Of a stretch of 64,000 nt of DNA, positions 4,523 through 59,694 are shown piece by piece; the stretch's first letter is position 1, and the number at the start of each line of letters is the position of its first letter. The translations under genes were made by a program, and so were the position numbers. The notes under the pieces are model-generated. The model saw only the letters and a program-made list of their open reading frames with translations, did no database searches and was not told the origin of the DNA. This DNA comes from Mycolicibacterium tokaiense (lineage in GTDB: Bacteria; Actinomycetota; Actinomycetes; Mycobacteriales; Mycobacteriaceae), in contig NZ_AP022600.1 of NCBI RefSeq assembly GCF_010725885.1, forward strand, positions 3,410,001 through 3,474,000, given 5' to 3'.

Positions 4523-5101
4523 ATGACAATTCCAGGAGAACGTCTCGACGCCGTCGTTGCTGACGCGGTGGCCGGCGATCGGAATGCGCTCCGGGAAGTG
4601 CTGGAGACCATCCGCCCGATCGTCGTCCGCTACGTGCGGGCACGCATCGGAACCGCGGAACGCAGCGGTCTCTCAGCTGATGACGTGGCTCAGGAGGTGT
4701 GCTTGGCCGCCATGCAGGCGTTGCCGCGGTACCAAGATCAGGGACGACCGTTCCTGGCCTTTGTGTACGGCATTGCAGCGCACAAGGTAGCTGACGCACA
4801 TCGTGCGGCCGGCCGGAACAAGGCTGACCCCACTGATGTCGTGCCCGAGCGCTTCAGCGTGGACGCGGGTCCCGAACAGCTTGCGATGAACGCCGACGCG
4901 GCGTCCCGCATGGATGCGCTGTTGAAGATCCTGCCGGAGAAGCAGCGCGAGATCCTGATCCTGCGTGTGGTGGTCGGAATGTCCGCCGAAGAGGTGGCCG
5001 AGGCCGTGGGCAGTACCGCGGGTGCGGTGCGGGTTGCCCAGCACCGGGCGCTGGCTCGGTTGAAGAACGAGATCACGGCGACGGGGTTCGACTATGCCTG
5101 A
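4523..5101 (+). CDS. sigD: ECF sigma factor SigD
   Basis: Group 4 (ECF) sigma factor, 192 residues, directing RNA polymerase to the SigD regulon. Region 2 spans about residues 25-95 (SADDVAQEVCLAAM, FLAFVYGIAAHKVADAHR). Region 4 lies at about 125-185, with the helix-turn-helix ILPEKQREILILRVVVGMS and SAEEVAEAVGSTAGAVR. ATG 4523 is preferred, with GGAG about 12 bases upstream; a TTG at 4505 adds six residues. It overlaps its anti-sigma gene by 8 bases, implying coupled translation, as in the M. tuberculosis sigD-rsdA pair. Confidence 0.93.
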   Translation: MTIPGERLDAVVADAVAGDRNALREVLETIRPIVVRYVRARIGTAERSGLSADDVAQEVCLAAMQALPRYQDQGRPFLAFVYGIAAHKVADAHRAAGRNKADPTDVVPERFSVDAGPEQLAMNADAASRMDALLKILPEKQREILILRVVVGMSAEEVAEAVGSTAGAVRVAQHRALARLKNEITATGFDYA

Positions 5102-6287
5102 TTTCGGGAGGGGTCCAAGCGAGCCGGAATCGCTGGACGACATCAACCGCAGTGACCGTCTGCTCGACGCGCTGGCCGGTGGCCAGCAGCGCATCCGCCC
5201 CGGGGACGCGGGCGAGGCCGAGCTGCTGAACCTGCTGGAGGGCTGGCGCGACGGTGTGCGCGCCCCCGGCACCAACGTGCTCAGCGAACAGGACGCGGTC
5301 AGCGCCCTGCACCGCGGACTGTCTCAGCCCTCCCCGCAGACCAAGGGCGCACGGAGGCATCTCGCTGTCGTGGGTTCCGTGGCCGCTGCGGTGCTGTGCA
5401 TCGGTGGGTTCGGCGCCGTCGTGGCCGGCGCCGGCCCGGGTGACTCGCTCTACGGCATGCGCACCGCGTTGTTCGGTGAACCGCAGTCGGTGCGAGACGA
5501 TCGGGTGGCGTTGGCCGCCCAGACCGAGATGGCCGAGGTCCAGCGGCTGATCGACCAGGGCGACTGGGATCAGGCGCAGCAGAAGCTGCAGACCCTGACC
5601 ACCTCGGTGGTGCAGGTCGAAGACGCCACCCGCCAGCAGCAGCTGGTCGACGAGTGGAATCTGCTGAACGTGAAGGTGGAGAGCCAGGATCCAGCGGCCA
5701 CCTTGCCGCCGCCCGAGCCGGGCGCTCCGCCGCTGACCCTGCCGGAGATCACGCTCCCGTCGGAGACCACATCGCCGGAGACCACATCACCGGAGACCAC
5801 GTCGCCCGACACGACGGCGCCCGACACGACGACGCCCGACACGACGACGGCGCCGTCGGAGACCACCTCTCCGTCGGAGACCAGCCCGCCGTCGGAGACG
5901 AGCCCGACCACCACCGAGCCGAGCCCGACCCCCACGTCGACGCCGGCGACCACCACACCATCACCGACGACCACGGCGAGCAGCACGACCAGCCGGCCGC
6001 CTACCACGACGACGACCACCACCACGTCCGCGCGCCCGACAACGAGCACGACGACCACCACCACTGCGGTGGCGGAAGCCGAGGAGTCGGCGTCGACGCC
6101 GGTCACGACGACGGCGGCCGAGGCTGTGGTGCCCAGCACCACGTTGATGGAGGTGGAAACGGGAACTCCCGCGCCGTCAGCTGAGTCGGAAGCCCCGCAG
6201 GCTCCGGAGACGGCGGTGAGCACACCCACCACGACGACGGTCCCGAATGGACCGCTGATTCAGCTGCCCATCCCGGGCTTGAACTGA
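5094..6287 (+). CDS. rsdA: Anti-sigma-D factor RsdA
   Basis: Membrane anti-sigma factor that binds and inactivates SigD (Rv3413c family). The 397-residue product has an acidic N-terminal cytoplasmic segment (LDDINRSDRLLDAL) that is the likely SigD-binding part, a single transmembrane helix at about 90-112, a short helical extracellular region (about 145-200), and then about 190 residues of Thr/Ser/Pro-rich repeats. The M. tuberculosis protein is about 300 residues, so the tail is longer here. Part of it is encoded by a 15-base tandem repeat. The tail is probably cell-wall spanning and possibly O-mannosylated. Confidence 0.88.
   Translation: MPDFGRGPSEPESLDDINRSDRLLDALAGGQQRIRPGDAGEAELLNLLEGWRDGVRAPGTNVLSEQDAVSALHRGLSQPSPQTKGARRHLAVVGSVAAAVLCIGGFGAVVAGAGPGDSLYGMRTALFGEPQSVRDDRVALAAQTEMAEVQRLIDQGDWDQAQQKLQTLTTSVVQVEDATRQQQLVDEWNLLNVKVESQDPAATLPPPEPGAPPLTLPEITLPSETTSPETTSPETTSPDTTAPDTTTPDTTTAPSETTSPSETSPPSETSPTTTEPSPTPTSTPATTTPSPTTTASSTTSRPPTTTTTTTTSARPTTSTTTTTTAVAEAEESASTPVTTTAAEAVVPSTTLMEVETGTPAPSAESEAPQAPETAVSTPTTTTVPNGPLIQLPIPGLN
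5763..5852 (+). repeat. 15-base tandem repeat in rsdA
   Basis: Six consecutive 15-base units, the first being GAGACCACATCGCCG, encode ETTSP/DTTAP-type pentapeptides. Units 1-3 are almost identical and units 4-6 diverged. Further imperfect units continue to about 5905. The array stays in frame. Confidence 0.85.
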
Positions 6288-8447: not shown

Positions 8448-9584
8448 ATGCGTGACATGGTTGAGATCGGCATGGGCAGGACCGCCCGTCGCACCTACGA
8501 ACTCGACGACATCAACATCGTCCCGTCGCGGCGGACCCGGTCCAGCAAGGACGTCTCGACGGCGTGGCAACTCGACGCCTACCGCTTCGAGATCCCGGTG
8601 CTCAGCCACCCGACCGACGCGTTGGCGTCCCCGGAGTTCGCCATCGAGATGGGTCGCCTCGGCGGCCTCGGGGTGCTCAACGGCGAGGGGTTGATCGGCC
8701 GGCACGCCGATGTCGAGGCCAAGGTGGCCCAGGTGATCGAGGCGGCCGCCAAAGAACCAGAGCCCTCGGCGTCGATCAGACTGCTGCAGCAGTTGCACGC
8801 CGCGCCGCTGGACCTCGATCTGCTGGGCGCCGCGGTCGCCCGGGTGCGCGACGCGGGAGTTACCACGGCGGTGCGGGTCAGCCCCCAGAACGCCAAGGAA
8901 CTCACGCCCACCCTGGTGGCCGCGGGCATCGACCTGCTGATCATCCAGGGCTCCATCATCTCGGCCGAGCGCGTGGCGTCCGACGGTGAACCCCTCAACC
9001 TCAAGACCTTCATCTCCGAACTCGACGTGCCCGTGGTGGCCGGCGGCGTGCTCGACCACCGCACCGCCCTGCACCTGATGCGAACCGGTGCCGCAGGCGT
9101 GATCGTCGGCTACGGCTCCACCTGGGGAGTGACCACCAGCAACGAAGTACTCGGCATCAGCGTGCCGATGGCCACCGCCATCGCCGACGCCGCCGCTGCC
9201 CGTCGCGAATACCTCGACGAGACCGGCGGCCGGTACGTGCACGTGCTGGCCGACGGCGACATTCACACCTCGGGTGAGCTGGCCAAGGCCATCGCCTGCG
9301 GCGCCGACGCCGTGGTGCTCGGCACGCCGCTCGCCGCGTCGGCCGAGGCACTCGGCGACGGCTGGTTCTGGCCGCCGGCCGCCGCCCACCCGTCACTGCC
9401 TCGTGGTGCGCTGCTGCAGGTGGCCCAGGGGGAGCGGCCGTCGCTGGCACAGGTGCTCAATGGGCCGTCCGACGATCCGTTCGGCACGCTGAACTTGGTC
9501 GGCGGCCTGCGTCGCTCGATGGCCAAGGCCGGCTACTGCGACCTCAAGGAGTTCCAGAAGGTCGGGCTCACCGTCGGCTCCTGA
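8448..9584 (+). CDS. guaB3: GuaB3, IMPDH-family protein without CBS domains
   Basis: Second IMP dehydrogenase/GMP reductase-family barrel, 378 residues, lacking the CBS pair. The ribosome site AGGGGT lies 8 bases before ATG 8448; a second ATG at 8457 is possible and matches the M. tuberculosis Rv3410c start as I recall it. The loop that carries the catalytic Cys in IMPDH reads GYGSTWGVTTS here (about residues 222-232), with no cysteine, so classical IMPDH or GMP reductase chemistry at this loop is not expected. The family is universally retained next to guaB2 in mycobacteria; its role is unsettled. Confidence 0.92.
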   Translation: MRDMVEIGMGRTARRTYELDDINIVPSRRTRSSKDVSTAWQLDAYRFEIPVLSHPTDALASPEFAIEMGRLGGLGVLNGEGLIGRHADVEAKVAQVIEAAAKEPEPSASIRLLQQLHAAPLDLDLLGAAVARVRDAGVTTAVRVSPQNAKELTPTLVAAGIDLLIIQGSIISAERVASDGEPLNLKTFISELDVPVVAGGVLDHRTALHLMRTGAAGVIVGYGSTWGVTTSNEVLGISVPMATAIADAAAARREYLDETGGRYVHVLADGDIHTSGELAKAIACGADAVVLGTPLAASAEALGDGWFWPPAAAHPSLPRGALLQVAQGERPSLAQVLNGPSDDPFGTLNLVGGLRRSMAKAGYCDLKEFQKVGLTVGS

Positions 9585-9590
9585 ATTCTG

Positions 9591-9650
9591 CCGAGCAGAC
9601 GCGAACTCGGGTTCAGCGGCCCGTCATCACCCGAGCTCGCGTCTGCTCGG
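9591..9650 (+). repeat. 60-base palindromic element, copy A
   Basis: Arms of 22 bases, beginning CCGAGCAGACGCGAACTCGG on the left, pair with the right arm with one mismatch around a 16-base loop. It lies between guaB3 and the convergent DUF559 gene and covers that gene's last codons. It may act as a terminator, but related 60-base copies lie at 10587-10646 and 32991-33050, so it is a repeat family. Confidence 0.8.
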
Positions 9651-10520
9651 GGCGCTCAGGTGGTAGGTCAGCCGTTCGGCAAGCCGGCCCGGACTCGCGC
9701 GTACATCGCTGCCGATGATCGGCACCACCAGCCACCCCATCTCCTGGAGTGCGGCTGTGCGCTTCTTGTCCCGCAGCATCTCCAGCGCGCCGGCGTGCCA
9801 GTCGATGCTCTCGTACTCCGCGGCCACCCTCTGATCCGGCCAGGCGAAGTCGACGCGGTACACGGTCCCGTCCTTGGTGACGATCTCGTACTGAAGTTCA
9901 GGAGTCGGCAGCCGGTGGTCGATCATCACCAGGCGCGCTTCGCTTTCCATCGCTGATTCCGCACGGCCGTCGGCGTGGGCGAGCAATTCGCGCACGTGGA
10001 CAATGCCTCGGCGGCCATGCTGCTCCCAGACGGCTCGCGCCAGTTCGGCCGGCGTGCACCACCTCGAGTGCAGTGCCGCGTCCAGGGTCGCCAGCGCCCG
10101 CGGCCGCGGTACCTGCCGGGCCACTTCGATCGCGGTCCAGGCGGGGCCGGTGGCCAGCCGCCCGTGGACTCGTCGCAGCGGGGCGCCGAGGCGTTGATGC
10201 ACCATCAATCCGATCTGCGGGCGCAGTCGAATGCCCGGATCCAGAACGTGCACGGCCGTCACCCCTTCGGTGTCGAATCCGTACAACGACGCCGCCGTCC
10301 CCAGGCACGCAACCACCTCTTGGCCGAGGTGCAGATCCAGCGCCCGCAGGCGGTCCAGCCGGTCGGGTATCCCTGCCGCGTAGATCCCGCGCCGCAGCCG
10401 GACCAGGTGTCCGGACTTGACCTGCCAGTCGAGCTGATCGCGGGTGATGATCTCAAGGAGCTGGCGTGTGGTTGCCATGCCACCGAGAACGTCAAGGAGT
10501 TGTTGCACCGCGGGATTCAT
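9627..10520 (-). CDS. AbiEi-like wHTH plus DUF559 nuclease-fold protein
   Basis: Function unknown; 297 residues. The N-terminus (about 1-55, MATTRQLLEIITRDQLDWQV, LVRLRRGIYAAG) resembles the winged-helix domain of AbiEi-type antitoxins. The C-terminal third resembles DUF559/Vsr-type PD-(D/E)XK endonucleases: an early Glu in ESEARL, Asp in YRVDFAWP, Glu in RVAAEYESIDWH, then LRDKKRTAALQEMGWLVVP. ATG 10520 has GGAGAA upstream. The gene lies between guaB3 and choD, neighbours in M. tuberculosis as I recall, and is bracketed by two palindromes of one family; its own 3' end lies inside copy A. This suggests recent insertion. It may be a defence or selfish-element nuclease, or an orphan antitoxin-type regulator. 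Confidence 0.75.
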   Translation of the reverse strand: MNPAVQQLLDVLGGMATTRQLLEIITRDQLDWQVKSGHLVRLRRGIYAAGIPDRLDRLRALDLHLGQEVVACLGTAASLYGFDTEGVTAVHVLDPGIRLRPQIGLMVHQRLGAPLRRVHGRLATGPAWTAIEVARQVPRPRALATLDAALHSRWCTPAELARAVWEQHGRRGIVHVRELLAHADGRAESAMESEARLVMIDHRLPTPELQYEIVTKDGTVYRVDFAWPDQRVAAEYESIDWHAGALEMLRDKKRTAALQEMGWLVVPIIGSDVRASPGRLAERLTYHLSAPSRRELG

Positions 10521-10586
10521 GGCGTGGATGGTTCTCCGGTGACACGCCGCCGGTGTGCACGCGCAACGACGCTGTGGATGATTTCG

Positions 10587-10646
10587 CCGAGCAGACGCGA
10601 GCTCGGGTTCTGGAGCTCGTGATCATCCGAGTTCACGTCTGCTCGG
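10587..10646 (+). repeat. 60-base palindromic element, copy B
   Basis: Same length and design as copy A and in the same orientation; the loop shares 11 of 16 bases. The left arm begins CCGAGCAGACGCGAGCTCGG; the right arm has three mismatches to it. It lies between the divergent DUF559 gene and choD, where a terminator has no obvious use. Confidence 0.8.
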
Positions 10647-10673
10647 CAAAGAACTTAGGGCACCCTCGCTAGC

Positions 10674-10706
10674 TTGTTACCGGTCAGTAAGTTCATAATG
10701 TGGCCA
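10674..10706 (+). promoter_or_regulatory. choD leaderless promoter and possible operator
   Basis: CATAAT (10694-10699) lies 6 bases before ATG 10706, so transcription may begin at the start codon. TTACCGGTCAGTAA at 10678-10691 is an imperfect inverted repeat of TetR-operator type overlapping the -35 position. Confidence 0.5.
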
Positions 10707-12442
10707 TGGCTCCTGATTACGACGTGCTGGTCATCGGGTCGGGGTTCGGCGGCAGCGTCACGGCGTTGCGGCTGACGGAGAAGGGTTATCGGGTCGGCGT
10801 ACTCGAGGCCGGTCGGCGCTTCGCCGACGAGGAGTTCGCCAAGACCTCCTGGAACCTGCGCAAATTCCTGTGGGCGCCCCAGTTCGGGTGCTACGGCATC
10901 CAGCGCATCCACCTGTTGCGTGACGTGCTGATCCTGGCGGGCGCCGGGGTGGGCGGCGGATCGCTGAACTATGCCAACACCCTCTATGTCCCGCCAGAGC
11001 CGTTCTTCAACGACCCGCAGTGGCGCGACATCACCGACTGGCGTTCGGAGCTGATGCCGCACTACGACCAGGCGCAGCGGATGCTCGGCGTGGTGACCAA
11101 CCCGACCTTCACCGATGCCGACCGCATCATGAAGGAGGTCGCCGACGACATGGGCGTGGGGGACACCTTCGTGCCCACCCCGGTCGGGGTGTTCTTCGGC
11201 CCCGACGGCACCCAGACCCCGGGCAAGCGTGTGCCCGACCCCTACTTCGGCGGAGTGGGCCCGCAGCGCACCGGCTGCATCGAGTGCGGCTCCTGCATGA
11301 CCGGCTGCCGGTTCGGTGCCAAGAACACGCTGGTGAAGAACTACCTCGGTCTGGCCGAAACCGCAGGCGCACAGGTGCATCCGATGACCACCGTCACCAG
11401 TCTGCGCCAGCGCGGCGACGGGCTGTGGGAGGTGGCGACGGTGCGCACCGGGCGCAAGGTGCGCCGCCGCAAGCGCACCTTCACCGCTGAGCACGTGGTG
11501 CTGGCGGCCGGCACCTTCGGCACTCAGAAGCTGCTGTTCAAGATGCGGGACACCAACACCCTGCCGCAGCTCTCCGACTCACTCGGCGTGCTCACCCGCA
11601 CCAACTCCGAGTCCATCGTGGGCGCCGGCCGACTGCGCGTCTCCGACGACCTGGACCTCACCCATGGTGTGGCCATCACGTCGTCGATCCACCCCACTGC
11701 CGACACTCATATCGAGCCGTGCCGCTACGGCAAGGGGTCCAACGCCATGGGTCTGCTGCAGACGCTGATGACCGACGGCAACGGCCCGGACGGCACTGAC
11801 ATTCCGCGGTGGAAGCAGTTGCTGCACAATGCCTCTCAGGATCCGCGTGGGACCATGCGGCTGCTGAATGCGCGACGCTGGAGCGAGCGCACCATGATCG
11901 CCCTGGTGATGCAGCACCTCGACAACTCCATCACCACCTTCACCAAGCGCACCAAGTGGGGCACCCGCAGGCTGACCAGCAGGCAGGGCCACGGGGAACC
12001 GAACCCGACCTGGATCCCGGTGGGCAACGAGGTGACCCGGCGCATTGCCAAGAAGATCGACGGCGTGGCAGGCGGCACCTGGGGGGAGATGTTCAACATC
12101 CCGCTGACCGCCCATTTTCTCGGTGGCGCAGCCATTTCCGACAGTCCCGAGCATGGAGTCATCGACCCCTACCATCGGGTGTACAACTACCCGACGTTGT
12201 ATGTCACCGATGGCGCGGCGATCTCGGCGAACCTCGGGGTCAACCCGTCGCTGTCGATCACAGCGCAGGCAGAACGCGCCGCGTCGCTGTGGCCGAACAA
12301 GGGCGAAGAGGATCTGCGGCCCGCGCAGGGGCAGCCCTACCGTCGGCTGGCTCCCATCGCCCCCCGCAATCCTGTGGTGCCCCACGACGCGCCGGCGGCC
12401 CTGCGGCAGTTGCCGATCGAACCGGTCAACACCGCCCGCTGA
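10706..12442 (+). CDS. choD: Cholesterol oxidase ChoD (GMC-type)
   Basis: Predicted FAD-dependent oxidase or dehydrogenase of the GMC superfamily, named for cholesterol 3-beta-ol oxidation in M. tuberculosis (Rv3409c); its true physiological substrate is debated. The 578-residue length equals the M. tuberculosis protein. The N-terminal FAD motif is VLVIGSGFGGS. A Cys-rich segment GCIECGSCMTGCRFGAKN lies at about 190-207. The C-terminal HFLGGAAI and DGAAISANLGVNPSLSI complete the FAD site. ATG 10706 is preferred over the in-frame GTG at 10700 because it fits the leaderless -10. There is no signal peptide, so it is cytosolic. Confidence 0.9.
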   Translation: MAPDYDVLVIGSGFGGSVTALRLTEKGYRVGVLEAGRRFADEEFAKTSWNLRKFLWAPQFGCYGIQRIHLLRDVLILAGAGVGGGSLNYANTLYVPPEPFFNDPQWRDITDWRSELMPHYDQAQRMLGVVTNPTFTDADRIMKEVADDMGVGDTFVPTPVGVFFGPDGTQTPGKRVPDPYFGGVGPQRTGCIECGSCMTGCRFGAKNTLVKNYLGLAETAGAQVHPMTTVTSLRQRGDGLWEVATVRTGRKVRRRKRTFTAEHVVLAAGTFGTQKLLFKMRDTNTLPQLSDSLGVLTRTNSESIVGAGRLRVSDDLDLTHGVAITSSIHPTADTHIEPCRYGKGSNAMGLLQTLMTDGNGPDGTDIPRWKQLLHNASQDPRGTMRLLNARRWSERTMIALVMQHLDNSITTFTKRTKWGTRRLTSRQGHGEPNPTWIPVGNEVTRRIAKKIDGVAGGTWGEMFNIPLTAHFLGGAAISDSPEHGVIDPYHRVYNYPTLYVTDGAAISANLGVNPSLSITAQAERAASLWPNKGEEDLRPAQGQPYRRLAPIAPRNPVVPHDAPAALRQLPIEPVNTAR

Positions 12443-32954: not shown

Positions 32955-32990
32955 ACGCAAGCCGGGGCCGTCAGCCGCGCACCAAACACC

Positions 32991-33050
32991 GCGAGCAGTG
33001 GCCAACTCGGGTGATCCGCGCCGCAGTCACCCGATTTGGCGTCTGCTCAC
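32991..33050 (+). repeat. 60-base palindromic element, copy C
   Basis: Same design and overall length as copies A and B: GAGCAG at 32993, the common core TCGGGTGAT on the left, and TCACCCGA…GCGTCTGCTC on the right; arms of about 22 bases with three mismatches. It lies between iunH and acrA1 and covers the acrA1 stop codon. In M. tuberculosis cmaA1 occupies this position, as I recall. Confidence 0.75.
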
Positions 33051-34867
33051 CAATGGATACCGGGCACCAACCGGGCCACCCGCTTCGCCGGCTTGGGCAC
33101 GCGGGTGCGGCGCCGAGACCGGGGCCGTGAGTCAATGACCGGCGCCGGCGCCGGCGACGGGGCGACACCGCGCGCCGCTGCGGAGTCCGGATAGCCGAGG
33201 TACAACTGGTGCAGCACCCGGCGCGACAGCTTGGGCAGCAGGTAGCGGCCGGCGTCGCCCAGGGTGCCCAGCGGGGTGTCGATCCGCACCGGCTTGTCGA
33301 CCAGTGCCCGAACCACCATCGCGGCGGCGTGCTCGGCGGTGATCGCGGGAACGGGATTCAGCCGGCTGGACGGCGCGATCATCGGCGTGCGTACCAGTGG
33401 CATGTGGATGGTCGTGAAGGTCACGTGGTCCGACAGCGTCTCGGCTGCCACCACTTCCGCGAAGGCGTCAAGTGCGGCCTTGGTCGGTACATAGGCCGAG
33501 TACCGCGGCGAGCTGGCCTGCACACCTGCGCTGGACACGTTGACGACATGGCCGAAACGGCGCCGCTGCCAGTGCGGCAGCAATGCCAGCACCATCCGCA
33601 CCGCGCCGAAGTAGTTGACCGCCATCACCCGCTCGTAGTCGTGGAAGCGGTCGGTGGACGCTCCGATAGAGCGCCTGATGGACCGGCCGGCGTTGTTCAC
33701 GAGGTAGTCGACGTGGCCGAAGCGGTCGAGGATCTCGGTGACGGTGTGCTGCACGGAATCTGCGTCGGTGACATCGCAAGCGAAGGCATGGGCCTGTCCG
33801 CCGTCGGCTCGGATCTCGGCGATCAGCTCGTCGAGCGCGGCGCTGTTGCGGGCCAGGGCGAACACCGTGGCTCCGCGGGCGGCGACGGCGACGGCCGAGG
33901 CACGGCCGATGCCGCTGGAGGCGCCGGTGATGACGACGTGACGCCCCGCCAGCGGGTCACGGCTGCGGTGCTGAGCCCAGAAGGTCCACAATGCCGGTGC
34001 ATAGGTGCCGAAGGCGGGGGCCTCGATACCCGTGCCGCGCAACGCCTCCTGAGTGTGGTCGGCGGTGAACTCCGACGTCATGCCCACGGTGTCGAGCACC
34101 CCGGCCGGGATGCCGACCTGGGTCACGGCCATGTTCCGCCACACCTTCAATCTGCCCTGGGCGCCCAGCACCGGGCCGGCGACGGCATCGGGCATGGTCA
34201 CCGGACGGACCGGCAGCCCGGCCGCAGGCGCCAGGGCACGATAGAAGCCGCGAAGGCTCACCGACTCGGACGCGGTGAGGTGGAACGTCTGGCCGTCGTG
34301 CCCGTCGGCGTGCATCAGGGCCACCAGTGCGTCGGCGACATAGTCGACCGGCACCACGTTCATCCGACCCACCTGCGGTAGCGCCACCGGGGCGAACCAT
34401 GGCAGTGCCGTGAGCTTGGCCAGCAGGCCGAAGAGGTGGTGCAGGCCGCCGGTCGTGTCGATCTCACCGGTGCGGGAGTCGCCCACCACCACACCGGGCC
34501 GATAGATGCGAAAGCGCAGGCCGGGGGTCTGGCGCACCCGCCGCTCGGCGTCGAACCTGTTCTGCTGGAACGGAGTCGGTAGATCCTGCCCCACGTCGAA
34601 GTCGTCCTCGGTGAACGTCCCGGCGAAGTTGCCCGCTACCGCGATCGAGGACACGAGATGCAGCGTCGCCCCCCACCGAAGGGTGAGTTCGATCAGCGCG
34701 CCGAGGTCGTCGTCGGTCCCGCAGTGCACCACGTGATCGACGACGAGGCCGTCCAGATCCGCGGGTGGAGGCGACACCTGGATGTCGGCGTCAGGGTCGT
34801 TCAGGTGGATCCGGTCCGCGATGTACCGGGCCAAGAACCCGGTACCGCAGGTAACGATATACTGCAT
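33047..34867 (-). CDS. acrA1: AcrA1-like fatty acyl-CoA reductase, two SDR-type domains
   Basis: Two-domain NAD(P)-dependent protein (Rv3391 family), probably reducing fatty acyl-CoA to aldehyde/alcohol for wax-type lipids. The C-terminal SDR domain (about 310-540) is complete: VITGASSGIG, NNAGRS, and SSAGVQASSPRYSAYVPTKAA. The N-terminal extended-SDR domain looks eroded: its glycine motif reads TCGTGFLA rather than TGGTGFIG, and at 606 residues the protein is about 45 shorter than the M. tuberculosis one, the gap falling between the first strand and VVDHVVHC. LHLVSSIAVAGNFAG and RIYRPGVVVGDSRTG remain. The basic tail may contact membranes. Confidence 0.85.
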   Translation of the reverse strand: MQYIVTCGTGFLARYIADRIHLNDPDADIQVSPPPADLDGLVVDHVVHCGTDDDLGALIELTLRWGATLHLVSSIAVAGNFAGTFTEDDFDVGQDLPTPFQQNRFDAERRVRQTPGLRFRIYRPGVVVGDSRTGEIDTTGGLHHLFGLLAKLTALPWFAPVALPQVGRMNVVPVDYVADALVALMHADGHDGQTFHLTASESVSLRGFYRALAPAAGLPVRPVTMPDAVAGPVLGAQGRLKVWRNMAVTQVGIPAGVLDTVGMTSEFTADHTQEALRGTGIEAPAFGTYAPALWTFWAQHRSRDPLAGRHVVITGASSGIGRASAVAVAARGATVFALARNSAALDELIAEIRADGGQAHAFACDVTDADSVQHTVTEILDRFGHVDYLVNNAGRSIRRSIGASTDRFHDYERVMAVNYFGAVRMVLALLPHWQRRRFGHVVNVSSAGVQASSPRYSAYVPTKAALDAFAEVVAAETLSDHVTFTTIHMPLVRTPMIAPSSRLNPVPAITAEHAAAMVVRALVDKPVRIDTPLGTLGDAGRYLLPKLSRRVLHQLYLGYPDSAAARGVAPSPAPAPVIDSRPRSRRRTRVPKPAKRVARLVPGIHW

Positions 34868-57934: not shown

Positions 57935-59694
57935 GAGATCTCCTTGGAGCCGAAGCGGCGGGCGAGCACGGCCAGCACGCCGATGACGGCGCAGTACAAC
58001 AGGCTGAGTTCGGCCGCGGATTGGAACGACCCGTTGTCGTAGGCGTCGAAGATGGCGATCGACAGCAGCCGGGTGTCGGAGGTGAACAGGAACAGCGCGG
58101 CGGTCAGCTCACGCATCGCGAGCATCATCAGCAGCAGGAAGGTCGACGACAGACCCACCCGCAGCAGCGGTGCGGTGACGAAGGTGATGGCGCGGTGCCT
58201 GCGGGCGCCGAGCATCACCGCACTGTCCTCGAGGTCCTTGTCCAACTGGACGATCGAGGCCGACACCCCGCGGTAGCCCTGCGGCAGGAACACCGCCACG
58301 AAGGCGATGACCAGCACCGCCAGCGTGCCGTAGACCGGGATCGGCAGCGCCAGCCACGTCCACAGCAGGCCCAGGCCCAAGACGATGGCCGGTACCGCCA
58401 GCGGCAGCATGGCGACGTACTCGAGAAGTTTGCGGCCCGGCGCCTTGGTGCGGTAGCGGGTGTAGGCCAGAGCGAAGCACAAGGCGGTGCCGATGCCGGC
58501 GGTGGCCACACCGACCACCACGCTGTTGATCACGACCTGGTGGAAGTCGCTGCTCTGCAAGGTCTGTCCCATGTTCCACAGCGACAGTGCGCCGGGTGAG
58601 CCGAGCTGACCCAGGTTGGCGACGTAGGGGCTGGTCTGCATGGCGGCGACGATGAGGGCGAGTACGGGCAGCAGCACGGCCAGTACGAAGTACGCCCAGG
58701 CGAAGACGGCGGCCGGGGTGCGCCAGCCGCGCAGTGAAACCTGGCGGGCCCGTACACCTTTACCGCTGACGGTGGTGTATTCCTTGCCGCCCATGGCCCG
58801 TTGTTGGAAGGCCACCACGACCACCAGCAGGACGGTGAGCACCACGGCGAGTGCGGCGGCGTCGTTGGAGCGGGCCGGTGAGGCGTTCATCAGTCGGTAG
58901 ATCAGGGTGGGCAGGGTGTCCACCCCGCCGGGGACGCCGATCACCTGGGCGACGGGGAAGTTCTCAACGGTCAGCGCGAACACCAGGATCGCCGAACCCA
59001 GCACTGCGGGCATCACCAGCGGGAAGGTGACCTCCCGCAGCATCCGGCGCACCGGGGCACCGTGCAGGCTGGCCGCATCCTCCAGGTCGGGGTTCATCAG
59101 CGACAGTGCGGAGTGCACCATGAGGAAAGGATATGGGGCGTAATATAATCCGAGCACAAAGATCATCCCGGTGAAGCTGTAGATGTCGATCAGATGGGGC
59201 ATTCCCATCGCTCCGAACGCCAGGTTCAGGTACCCGGTGGCCGGGCCGGCCAGCAGCGCCCAGGCCAGAGCGCCCACCAATGCGGGCAGGAACAGCGGCA
59301 TGATGGCGATGCCGTAGATCAGTTTGCGGCCCGGGATGTCGGTACGGGCGGCCAGGAACGCCAGCAGGCAGCCGATGATCAGCGCCACCGCCGATGAGCC
59401 GATGCCGACGGCGGCGGAGTTCAGCAGCGCGGTCTGCGCCGTACCCGAACCCAGCACCGCGAAGTTGTCGAAGGTGAAACTGCCGAAGTCGAACAGGTTG
59501 TCGCGCTCGGTGTTCTCGCTGAACGCTCCGGCGAGGATGAAGAACATCGGGCACAAGACGATGACGGTCAGCACCGCCAGCTGGATCAGGACGGGCATGG
59601 TGCCGCGTAGTCGGAGCCGGCGGCGGCGCGGCGGTTCACCGGCCGGCGCGGTCGACGTCTGCGGTACCGGTGGTGTTACGGTGGGAGCGCTCAT
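57931..59694 (-). CDS. ABC importer double permease (FbpB-like)
   Basis: Fused two-copy membrane subunit, 587 residues, about 12 transmembrane segments. Each half carries a binding-protein-dependent transport signature: EDAASLHGAPVRRMLREVTFP at about 195-215 (split as EDAASLHGAP and MLREVTFP) and EDSAVMLGARRHRAITFVTAP at about 490-510 (EDSAVMLGARR). The N-terminal 35 residues are Pro/Arg-rich and cytoplasmic. ATGA overlaps link it to both neighbours. Confidence 0.92.
   Translation of the reverse strand: MSAPTVTPPVPQTSTAPAGEPPRRRRLRLRGTMPVLIQLAVLTVIVLCPMFFILAGAFSENTERDNLFDFGSFTFDNFAVLGSGTAQTALLNSAAVGIGSSAVALIIGCLLAFLAARTDIPGRKLIYGIAIMPLFLPALVGALAWALLAGPATGYLNLAFGAMGMPHLIDIYSFTGMIFVLGLYYAPYPFLMVHSALSLMNPDLEDAASLHGAPVRRMLREVTFPLVMPAVLGSAILVFALTVENFPVAQVIGVPGGVDTLPTLIYRLMNASPARSNDAAALAVVLTVLLVVVVAFQQRAMGGKEYTTVSGKGVRARQVSLRGWRTPAAVFAWAYFVLAVLLPVLALIVAAMQTSPYVANLGQLGSPGALSLWNMGQTLQSSDFHQVVINSVVVGVATAGIGTALCFALAYTRYRTKAPGRKLLEYVAMLPLAVPAIVLGLGLLWTWLALPIPVYGTLAVLVIAFVAVFLPQGYRGVSASIVQLDKDLEDSAVMLGARRHRAITFVTAPLLRVGLSSTFLLLMMLAMRELTAALFLFTSDTRLLSIAIFDAYDNGSFQSAAELSLLYCAVIGVLAVLARRFGSKEIS

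Follow-up and report, generated by a model that had tools for sequence, protein, structure and literature searches.

A nuclease-like AbiEi-Vsr gene and its private palindrome in Mycolicibacterium tokaiense: a candidate two-part system

Does a short palindrome that stands on both sides of a single gene belong to that gene? The question is raised by a stretch of 64,000 nucleotides from Mycolicibacterium tokaiense (contig NZ_AP022600.1, positions 3,410,001 to 3,474,000; hereafter the window), in which two copies of a palindrome of about 60 base pairs enclose one gene for a nuclease-like protein with an AbiEi-like and a Vsr-like part. In mycobacteria and some of their relatives, such genes often sit between two copies of a palindrome of about 60 letters that is private to each gene, and we think it rather probable that gene and palindrome form a two-part system in which the nuclease recognises the palindrome and drives its spread and homogenisation. 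The core features are the following (positions in the window; R1 is a covariance model of the palindrome of which both copies are themselves part):

9591..9650, no strand: palindrome copy A (GAGCAGACGCGAACTCGG family), where the nuclease gene and guaB3 have their 3' ends; R1 E 3.4e-18
10587..10646, no strand: palindrome copy B, between the divergent nuclease gene and choD, on the upstream side of the former; R1 E 3.3e-17
9627..10520, minus strand: AbiEi-Vsr fusion gene, palindrome-associated and nuclease-like, 297 amino acids (Pfam, AlphaFold2 model)
10368..10520, minus strand: predicted N-terminal winged-helix part, residues 1-51; AbiEi_4 match, winged-helix chains aligning to residues 1-50/52
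9969..10367, minus strand: predicted middle part, AbiEi_1-like (nucleotidyltransferase-like), residues 52-184
9642..9962, minus strand: predicted Vsr/EDxHD-type nuclease domain, residues 187-293, with conserved E192, D224, E235 and D251

A preliminary description of this DNA had placed A at 9591-9650 and B at 10587-10646, facing the same way; the coordinates proved exact, and the two align as direct copies with 83% identity over 66 nucleotides, 996 nucleotides from start to start. Its shared arms of 22 bases hold for copy A (95% complementary), but those of the slightly worn copy B measure 24 nucleotides (88% complementary). On either strand, both copies form folds much more stable than those of dinucleotide shuffles (z -5.25 to -6.94; none of 200 shuffles equalled any of the four folds). 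The 14-mer CCGAGCAGACGCGA occurs 17 times in the whole genome and its reversed control not once, and the palindrome family is therefore not a chance product. A scan of 8800-11600 against Rfam gave no family at gathering score; microRNA hairpin models all fell below theirs and were put down to chance hairpins. Looking up the literal motif GAGCAGACGC in the open-access literature returned matches of which those listed are, by title, on unrelated topics, and the palindrome had no match in either the phage or the plasmid collection.

Between the copies, again as had been described, lies a single gene, the sole open reading frame there, whose stop (9627-9629) falls inside copy A. Its product matches MTES_1575 (E 1.4e-4), AbiEi_4 (2e-4), AbiEi_1 and DUF559 in Pfam, all under the curated cut-offs, and nothing in NCBIfam. 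Both halves are backed by an AlphaFold2 model of high confidence (predicted local distance difference test score 94.5), which bears out the AbiEi-like winged helix and nuclease-type C-terminus first proposed, in that the predicted structure combines an AbiEi part with a Vsr/I-Bth0305I-type fold. By this model the catalytic domain has the fold of the Vsr/EDxHD homing endonuclease superfamily, and the four acidic residues, which we take as the probable catalytic ones, are conserved throughout alignment A6 (E192 in 57/57 members; D224, E235 and D251 in 56/57 each). The AbiEi model of PADLOC matches all 14 members of the smaller alignment A3. TAL-effector matches to A3, confined to profile positions 122-171, were gone with the larger A6 and were put down to helical similarity. 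The gene had no match in the phage collection and one, at 31%, in the plasmid collection (a Nonomuraea record).

The arrangement recurs across the gene family, with 1-17 matches per genome over 118 genomes of mycobacteria. Among the 13 homologs in the M. tokaiense genome (E 0.01), five have a matching pair of hairpins at a score of at least 12, each pair with its own sequence (loci L021, the window gene, L027, L028, L029 and L033); two further genes (L022 and L023, the latter below the threshold of the catalytic-residue count given later) have weaker pairs that match by eye, so that 7 of the 13 are bracketed. L026 has a hairpin upstream only. As in the window, the downstream palindrome contains the stop codon at L027, L029 and L033. 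Two genes stand apart: L028 (G000:C1 about 3075100-3076160) has a broken reading frame, yet has kept both bracketing palindromes, and L030 (G000:C1:2922112-2922939) lacks three of the four catalytic residues and has no palindrome pair. In a wider set of 126 loci, including four repeats of the same gene (L120, L122, L197 and L198), a family reading frame is present at 125 (none at L032), with hairpins of score at least 11 upstream at 86, downstream at 84 and on both sides at 68. With repeats dropped, the same 121 loci hold 131 hairpins of score at least 15 in 51.4 kb of flanks, in zones chosen after the first pairs were known, against 6 in 541.5 kb elsewhere.

In other genomes, with a hairpin score of at least 10 on both sides and a pair similarity of at least 25 as the criterion, 6, 5 and 5 of the best 12 candidates are bracketed in genomes G004, G011 and G065, respectively, as are three of the five loci fetched from G029 (6 genes). 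Outside the genus, eight of the 20 loci with the best scores (L316-L335) are bracketed (L319, L325, L326, L328, L329, L330, L333 and L334), with wholly different sequences. The window subfamily itself was represented by 81 loci, namely the window and the best 80 of the named Mycobacteriaceae loci among 230 relatives. At 54 of them a hairpin stands on either side, and in 41 of these 54 pairs both copies, as detected, carry the outer CAG(A/T)C end. The palindrome combines a conserved outer end (CGAGCAGAC in the window's clade) with an inner arm that varies, each gene having a private version.

The privacy of the inner arm is the first of the observations that couple gene and palindrome. With the outer ends removed, the similarity within the 54 pairs is 22.6 as compared to 9.6 across pairs, a difference that none of 10,000 permutations reached, and 26 of the 54 have their own partner at the top of the ranking; like those below, these p-values carry no correction for the tree. 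The 80 named loci fall into 13 syntenic groups, and the match holds at single sites: the largest group (20 of 25 loci usable) gives 21.5 for own and 12.0 for cross pairs (0/10,000), the second (15 of 16) gives 22.6 and 18.1 (1/10,000). Both bracketing copies therefore change together in place. Protein distance follows upstream-arm distance as well (Mantel r 0.59, 0/2,000), which shared descent alone would also give.

The second observation concerns copies away from the cognate gene. R1, built from 14 copies whose alignment ends in CGAGCAG/CTGCTCG, gives hits at E up to 0.01 in at least 20 places of the 6.33-Mb genome (one weak, E 0.003), a lower bound because 150 of 9,298 first-look candidates were scored. 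The window holds one of them besides A and B:

32989..33052, no strand: worn third copy of the same palindrome family, solo; R1 E 2.5e-7

The other families of this genome vary in number: that of L033 has 16 further copies, that of L029 four and a weak fifth, and that of L026 two. Among the solo copies listed for the four genomes that offered both such copies and a clade I bracket (the window's own, G034, G097 and G089), 35 of 36 have arms nearest to the bracket of their own genome. One window-family pair encloses something else: at G000:C1:4535808-4536563 (L116 about 4809-5564), an unrelated gene of about 200 amino acids lies between two palindromes with similar centres, in the same upstream/downstream layout as around the nuclease gene; it is possibly cargo, or an old unit in which the nuclease gene was replaced.

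The third is the distribution over genomes. The pattern CGAGCAGACN{30,50}GTCTGCTCG is present in 94 of the 118 genomes, with up to 104 copies (counted with exact outer ends and bracketing copies included), and its reversed control in none. The 59 genomes with a full-length match to the window's gene clade (clade I; a few matches have an internal stop) have a median of 18 palindromes and none has zero, whereas the median is 1 among the 56 that lack such a gene, 24 of which have zero (p 2e-15); the cut for clade I (matches of about 430 bits or more, against 399 or less) was chosen once the bimodal scores were known and fits the palindromes at the fetched loci. Three genomes with a clade I fragment only (median 25) were kept apart. 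The sister clade II, whose genes have a different outer end (GAGCGTGCG), makes no clear difference: the median is 2 in 19 genomes with clade II only and 0 in 37 with neither clade (p 0.12). This clade-resolved test supersedes an earlier one (p 9e-11) that had pooled the two clades. The expected association of palindrome and gene family was borne out both by the recurrence of private pairs and by a copy number that tracks clade I over 118 genomes; neither an even spread of palindromes nor the gene at this locus in all relatives was found.

Finally, palindromes are present or absent at orthologous sites. Eleven solo sites were set against the nearest relative, G056, which is hairpin-free at 424351, 605618 and 1410898; at 58822 it has no hairpin over threshold and, by eye, a remnant resembling the L033 family (L258). 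It holds its own arm version at 432994 and 5275528, essentially the same palindrome at 4981036, and other hairpins at 1138508, 17495, 2398630 and 6209627. Nine more stretches from six other genomes, chosen for a contiguous match across the junction, are hairpin-free as well. Where G056 carries hairpins of other families at window-palindrome sites (two close together in L260, one in L262), the sites seem to be shared targets for different palindrome families.

Gene and palindrome are coupled at both ends of the gene, at distant copies and through change at a fixed site, and recognition by the encoded protein is the simplest such coupling: it is strongly implied that each protein recognises its own palindrome. 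The predicted fold offers DNA binding together with nicking or cutting, the latter by a domain whose superfamily has members in homing and in mismatch repair. We suggest that the AbiEi half, probably as a dimer, would bind its own palindrome at the inverted arms, that the Vsr-like half would cut at or beside it, and that repair from another copy would put the palindrome at new sites and overwrite old copies. Such a process would result in spread, in homogenised copies within each genome and, upon drift of the specificity, in a joint shift of both bracketing copies.

A number of points weigh against this proposal. We infer binding, cutting and movement from sequence and predicted structure, and no nuclease of Vsr-like fold is known to join DNA, so that host repair would have to do the copying. 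Alignments to the nearest relative resolved neither a target-site duplication nor an exact insertion point. Shared ancestry means that the p-values overstate the independent evidence, and in the third syntenic group (4 of 9 loci usable) 416 of 10,000 permutations reached the own value. A few of the 54 pairs evidently lack a cognate palindrome (e.g. upstream at L146, L163 and L175), and the families of L027 and L028 have no clear solo copy in this genome. Four clade I genomes have just 2-3 copies, and seven genomes without a clade I gene (G100, G085, G107, G051, G071, G046 and G095) hold 10-31 GAGCAGAC palindromes, either relic repeats after gene loss or the mark of a missed partner gene. Moreover, among 189 genes (10 duplicates, six contig-edge loci and L032 dropped), 77 of 173 catalytically intact ones have no bracket at threshold, and 3 of 16 with a changed catalytic residue are bracketed nonetheless (L330, L334 and L351).

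The alternative that survives best, although we regard it as unlikely, is an autoregulator: the AbiEi half would repress its own gene from the upstream palindrome, the other copies would be operators, the nuclease half would do something else, and the protein would not move the repeats. The AbiEi-type fold would suit such a role, as would the upstream copy, which lies about 100-200 bp before the aligned protein start in most loci having one. The second copy, however, sits at the stop codon. By automatic calling, the 18 places beyond A and B comprise 8 between convergent genes, 2 between divergent ones and 8 in tandem (several tandem calls, which overlap the palindrome, are doubtful; one of them, L016, was read as convergent), and operators would hardly be expected in such places. 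A copy number of up to 104 per genome and orthologous sites without a hairpin are equally difficult to reconcile with autoregulation.

Conserved hairpins are found at mycobacterial gene ends under the name TRIT, a terminator motif of M. tuberculosis reportedly described by Gardner et al. in 2011. It is improbable, in our view, that the palindromes are such terminators or structural elements, perhaps of the same kind of sequence, which spread by another route and merely have nuclease genes between two of them. They do stand at gene ends, eight of the 18 between convergent genes, and the literature holds a TRIT model (PMC3526491). But a terminator scan of 9000-11300 that allowed loops of 3-8 gave no site, and no T-tract follows the hairpins; nor would terminators predict that the two sides of a gene share a private arm, that arm sequences are many, or that copy number follows one clade and not its sister. 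A terminator-only reading, drawn from the convergent contexts, was dropped once other DUF559 genes showed other, private palindromes. Just as doubtful is self-marking or addiction, with palindromes as decoys or marks that restrain the nuclease, so that a cell deprived of them, or DNA without them, would be cut: the PADLOC matches to A3 and a DUF559 Vsr-like protein behind a DNA-damage response in Caulobacter without a methyltransferase (PMC12907096) speak for it, whereas genes with the bracketing pair alone and no clear further copy exist, and the window neighbours are guaB3 and choD rather than a methylase or toxin.

The two-part system of nuclease and palindrome has its closest parallel in the repetitive extragenic palindromic (REP) elements and their REP-associated tyrosine transposases (RAYTs). 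According to the literature on REPtrons (PMC2817692, PMC3733652, PMC3116915), REPINs (PMC3116915) and the GTAG and CGTC REPs (PMC3733652), a gene lies between two short palindromes, copies are scattered between genes, the palindrome is specific for each gene and a genome has several families; RAYT genes are described there as always flanked by inverted REPs. The same holds here: an enzyme gene is bracketed by two copies, the repeat is scattered, mostly between genes by automatic calling, over at least 20 places in this genome and up to 104 in a relative, its sequence differs from gene to gene, and several families share one genome. The enzyme is different, a predicted AbiEi-Vsr fusion instead of an HUH/Y1 tyrosine transposase of the IS200/IS605 group; AbiEi (1-184) and Vsr/I-Bth0305I fold (187-293) leave no room for another domain in the window protein. 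Moreover, the 14-copy alignment has no shared GTAG tag, the palindrome is about 60 bp long, and the window pair is direct (22 direct, 11 inverted and 21 undecided among the 54). Since enzyme, tag and often orientation differ, the system would work like REP/RAYT without being a member, in agreement with the REP-like arrangement with a nuclease-fold partner that the preliminary description had proposed from this one locus; private pairs recur, and copy number tracks the cognate clade.

Other relatives share single traits. The predicted catalytic fold and its conserved acidic residues link the protein to the EDxHD homing endonuclease I-Bth0305I and the Vsr repair endonuclease, but the gene lies between two genes and not in an intron, its partner DNA is a multi-copy palindrome, and its N-terminal half is AbiEi-like. 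From AbiEi antitoxins (type IV toxin-antitoxin) it differs by the C-terminal nuclease domain and by having guaB3 and choD, not an AbiEii toxin gene, as neighbours. TRIT has in common with the palindrome the hairpin at gene ends, a likeness by description, not sequence, and the T-tract is missing here. Miniature inverted-repeat transposable elements (MITEs) are short non-autonomous repeats related to an enzyme-coding parent; here, too, short repeats are tied to an enzyme-coding partner, but this partner lacks a DDE transposase fold and a target-site duplication was not resolved. A search of the open-access literature found no paper linking this nuclease family with bracketing palindromes; the subscription literature was outside its scope.

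Among the enzymes that accompany palindromic repeats in bacteria, the RAYT transposase is the best known. If our proposal is true, a second, unrelated partner would imply more than one origin for the palindrome-plus-enzyme arrangement, a large gene family that goes mostly by domain names such as DUF559 and AbiEi would gain a role, and hairpins in mycobacteria that perhaps pass for terminators at present could be explained. With a little more doubt than belief, it is tempting to imagine a REP-like world independent of transposases, in which AbiEi-aimed Vsr-type nucleases home hairpins through actinobacterial genomes by cut-and-repair, with many orthogonal specificities per chromosome that drift together by gene conversion. 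The many natural, apparently orthogonal pairs of enzyme and site would be of use for recognition studies.

At this locus the gene stands between two neighbours on the other strand:

8448..9584, plus strand: guaB3, left neighbour (TIGR01304 above cut-off), ending 6 nucleotides before copy A
10706..12442, plus strand: choD-like gene of the cholesterol-oxidase family, right neighbour (ATG at 10706 taken, GTG at 10700), starting 60 nucleotides after copy B

The name choD is taken over from the preliminary description, the match to NF058674 being below cut-off. guaB3 was located in 59 of 60 genomes, and choD lies downstream of it at 52 of these 59 loci (both counts include the window); at the other seven, two of which end at a contig edge, choD was unseen in the fetched stretch. 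In 42 of the 52 the gap measures at most 214 bp, too small for the gene, and this comparison supports the insertion that had been suspected here. Limits are set to an inserted unit by the 18 of 20 places that lie away from the cognate gene, and many loci of the subfamily stand at shared chromosomal sites, so that a unit that jumps whole is not established. Twelve of the short gaps hold a hairpin, by eye six of the GAGCAGAC kind and six others, with a median gap of 141 bp as compared to 78 bp without. Among the ten wide gaps (at least 707 bp) are that of the window gene, those of two orthologs (L058 and L061, 64-65% identical) and that of a distant member, L089 (35% match). An ortholog with a palindrome pair is thereby found in the window genome and two others; at L058 and L061 the two palindromes have arms differing from the window's (GCAGACACAAACT) and alike within each genome. 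The gap with L089 (G044) also contains, soon after guaB3, a short tandem array of a GTGTCGACTCCACGCC-like unit.
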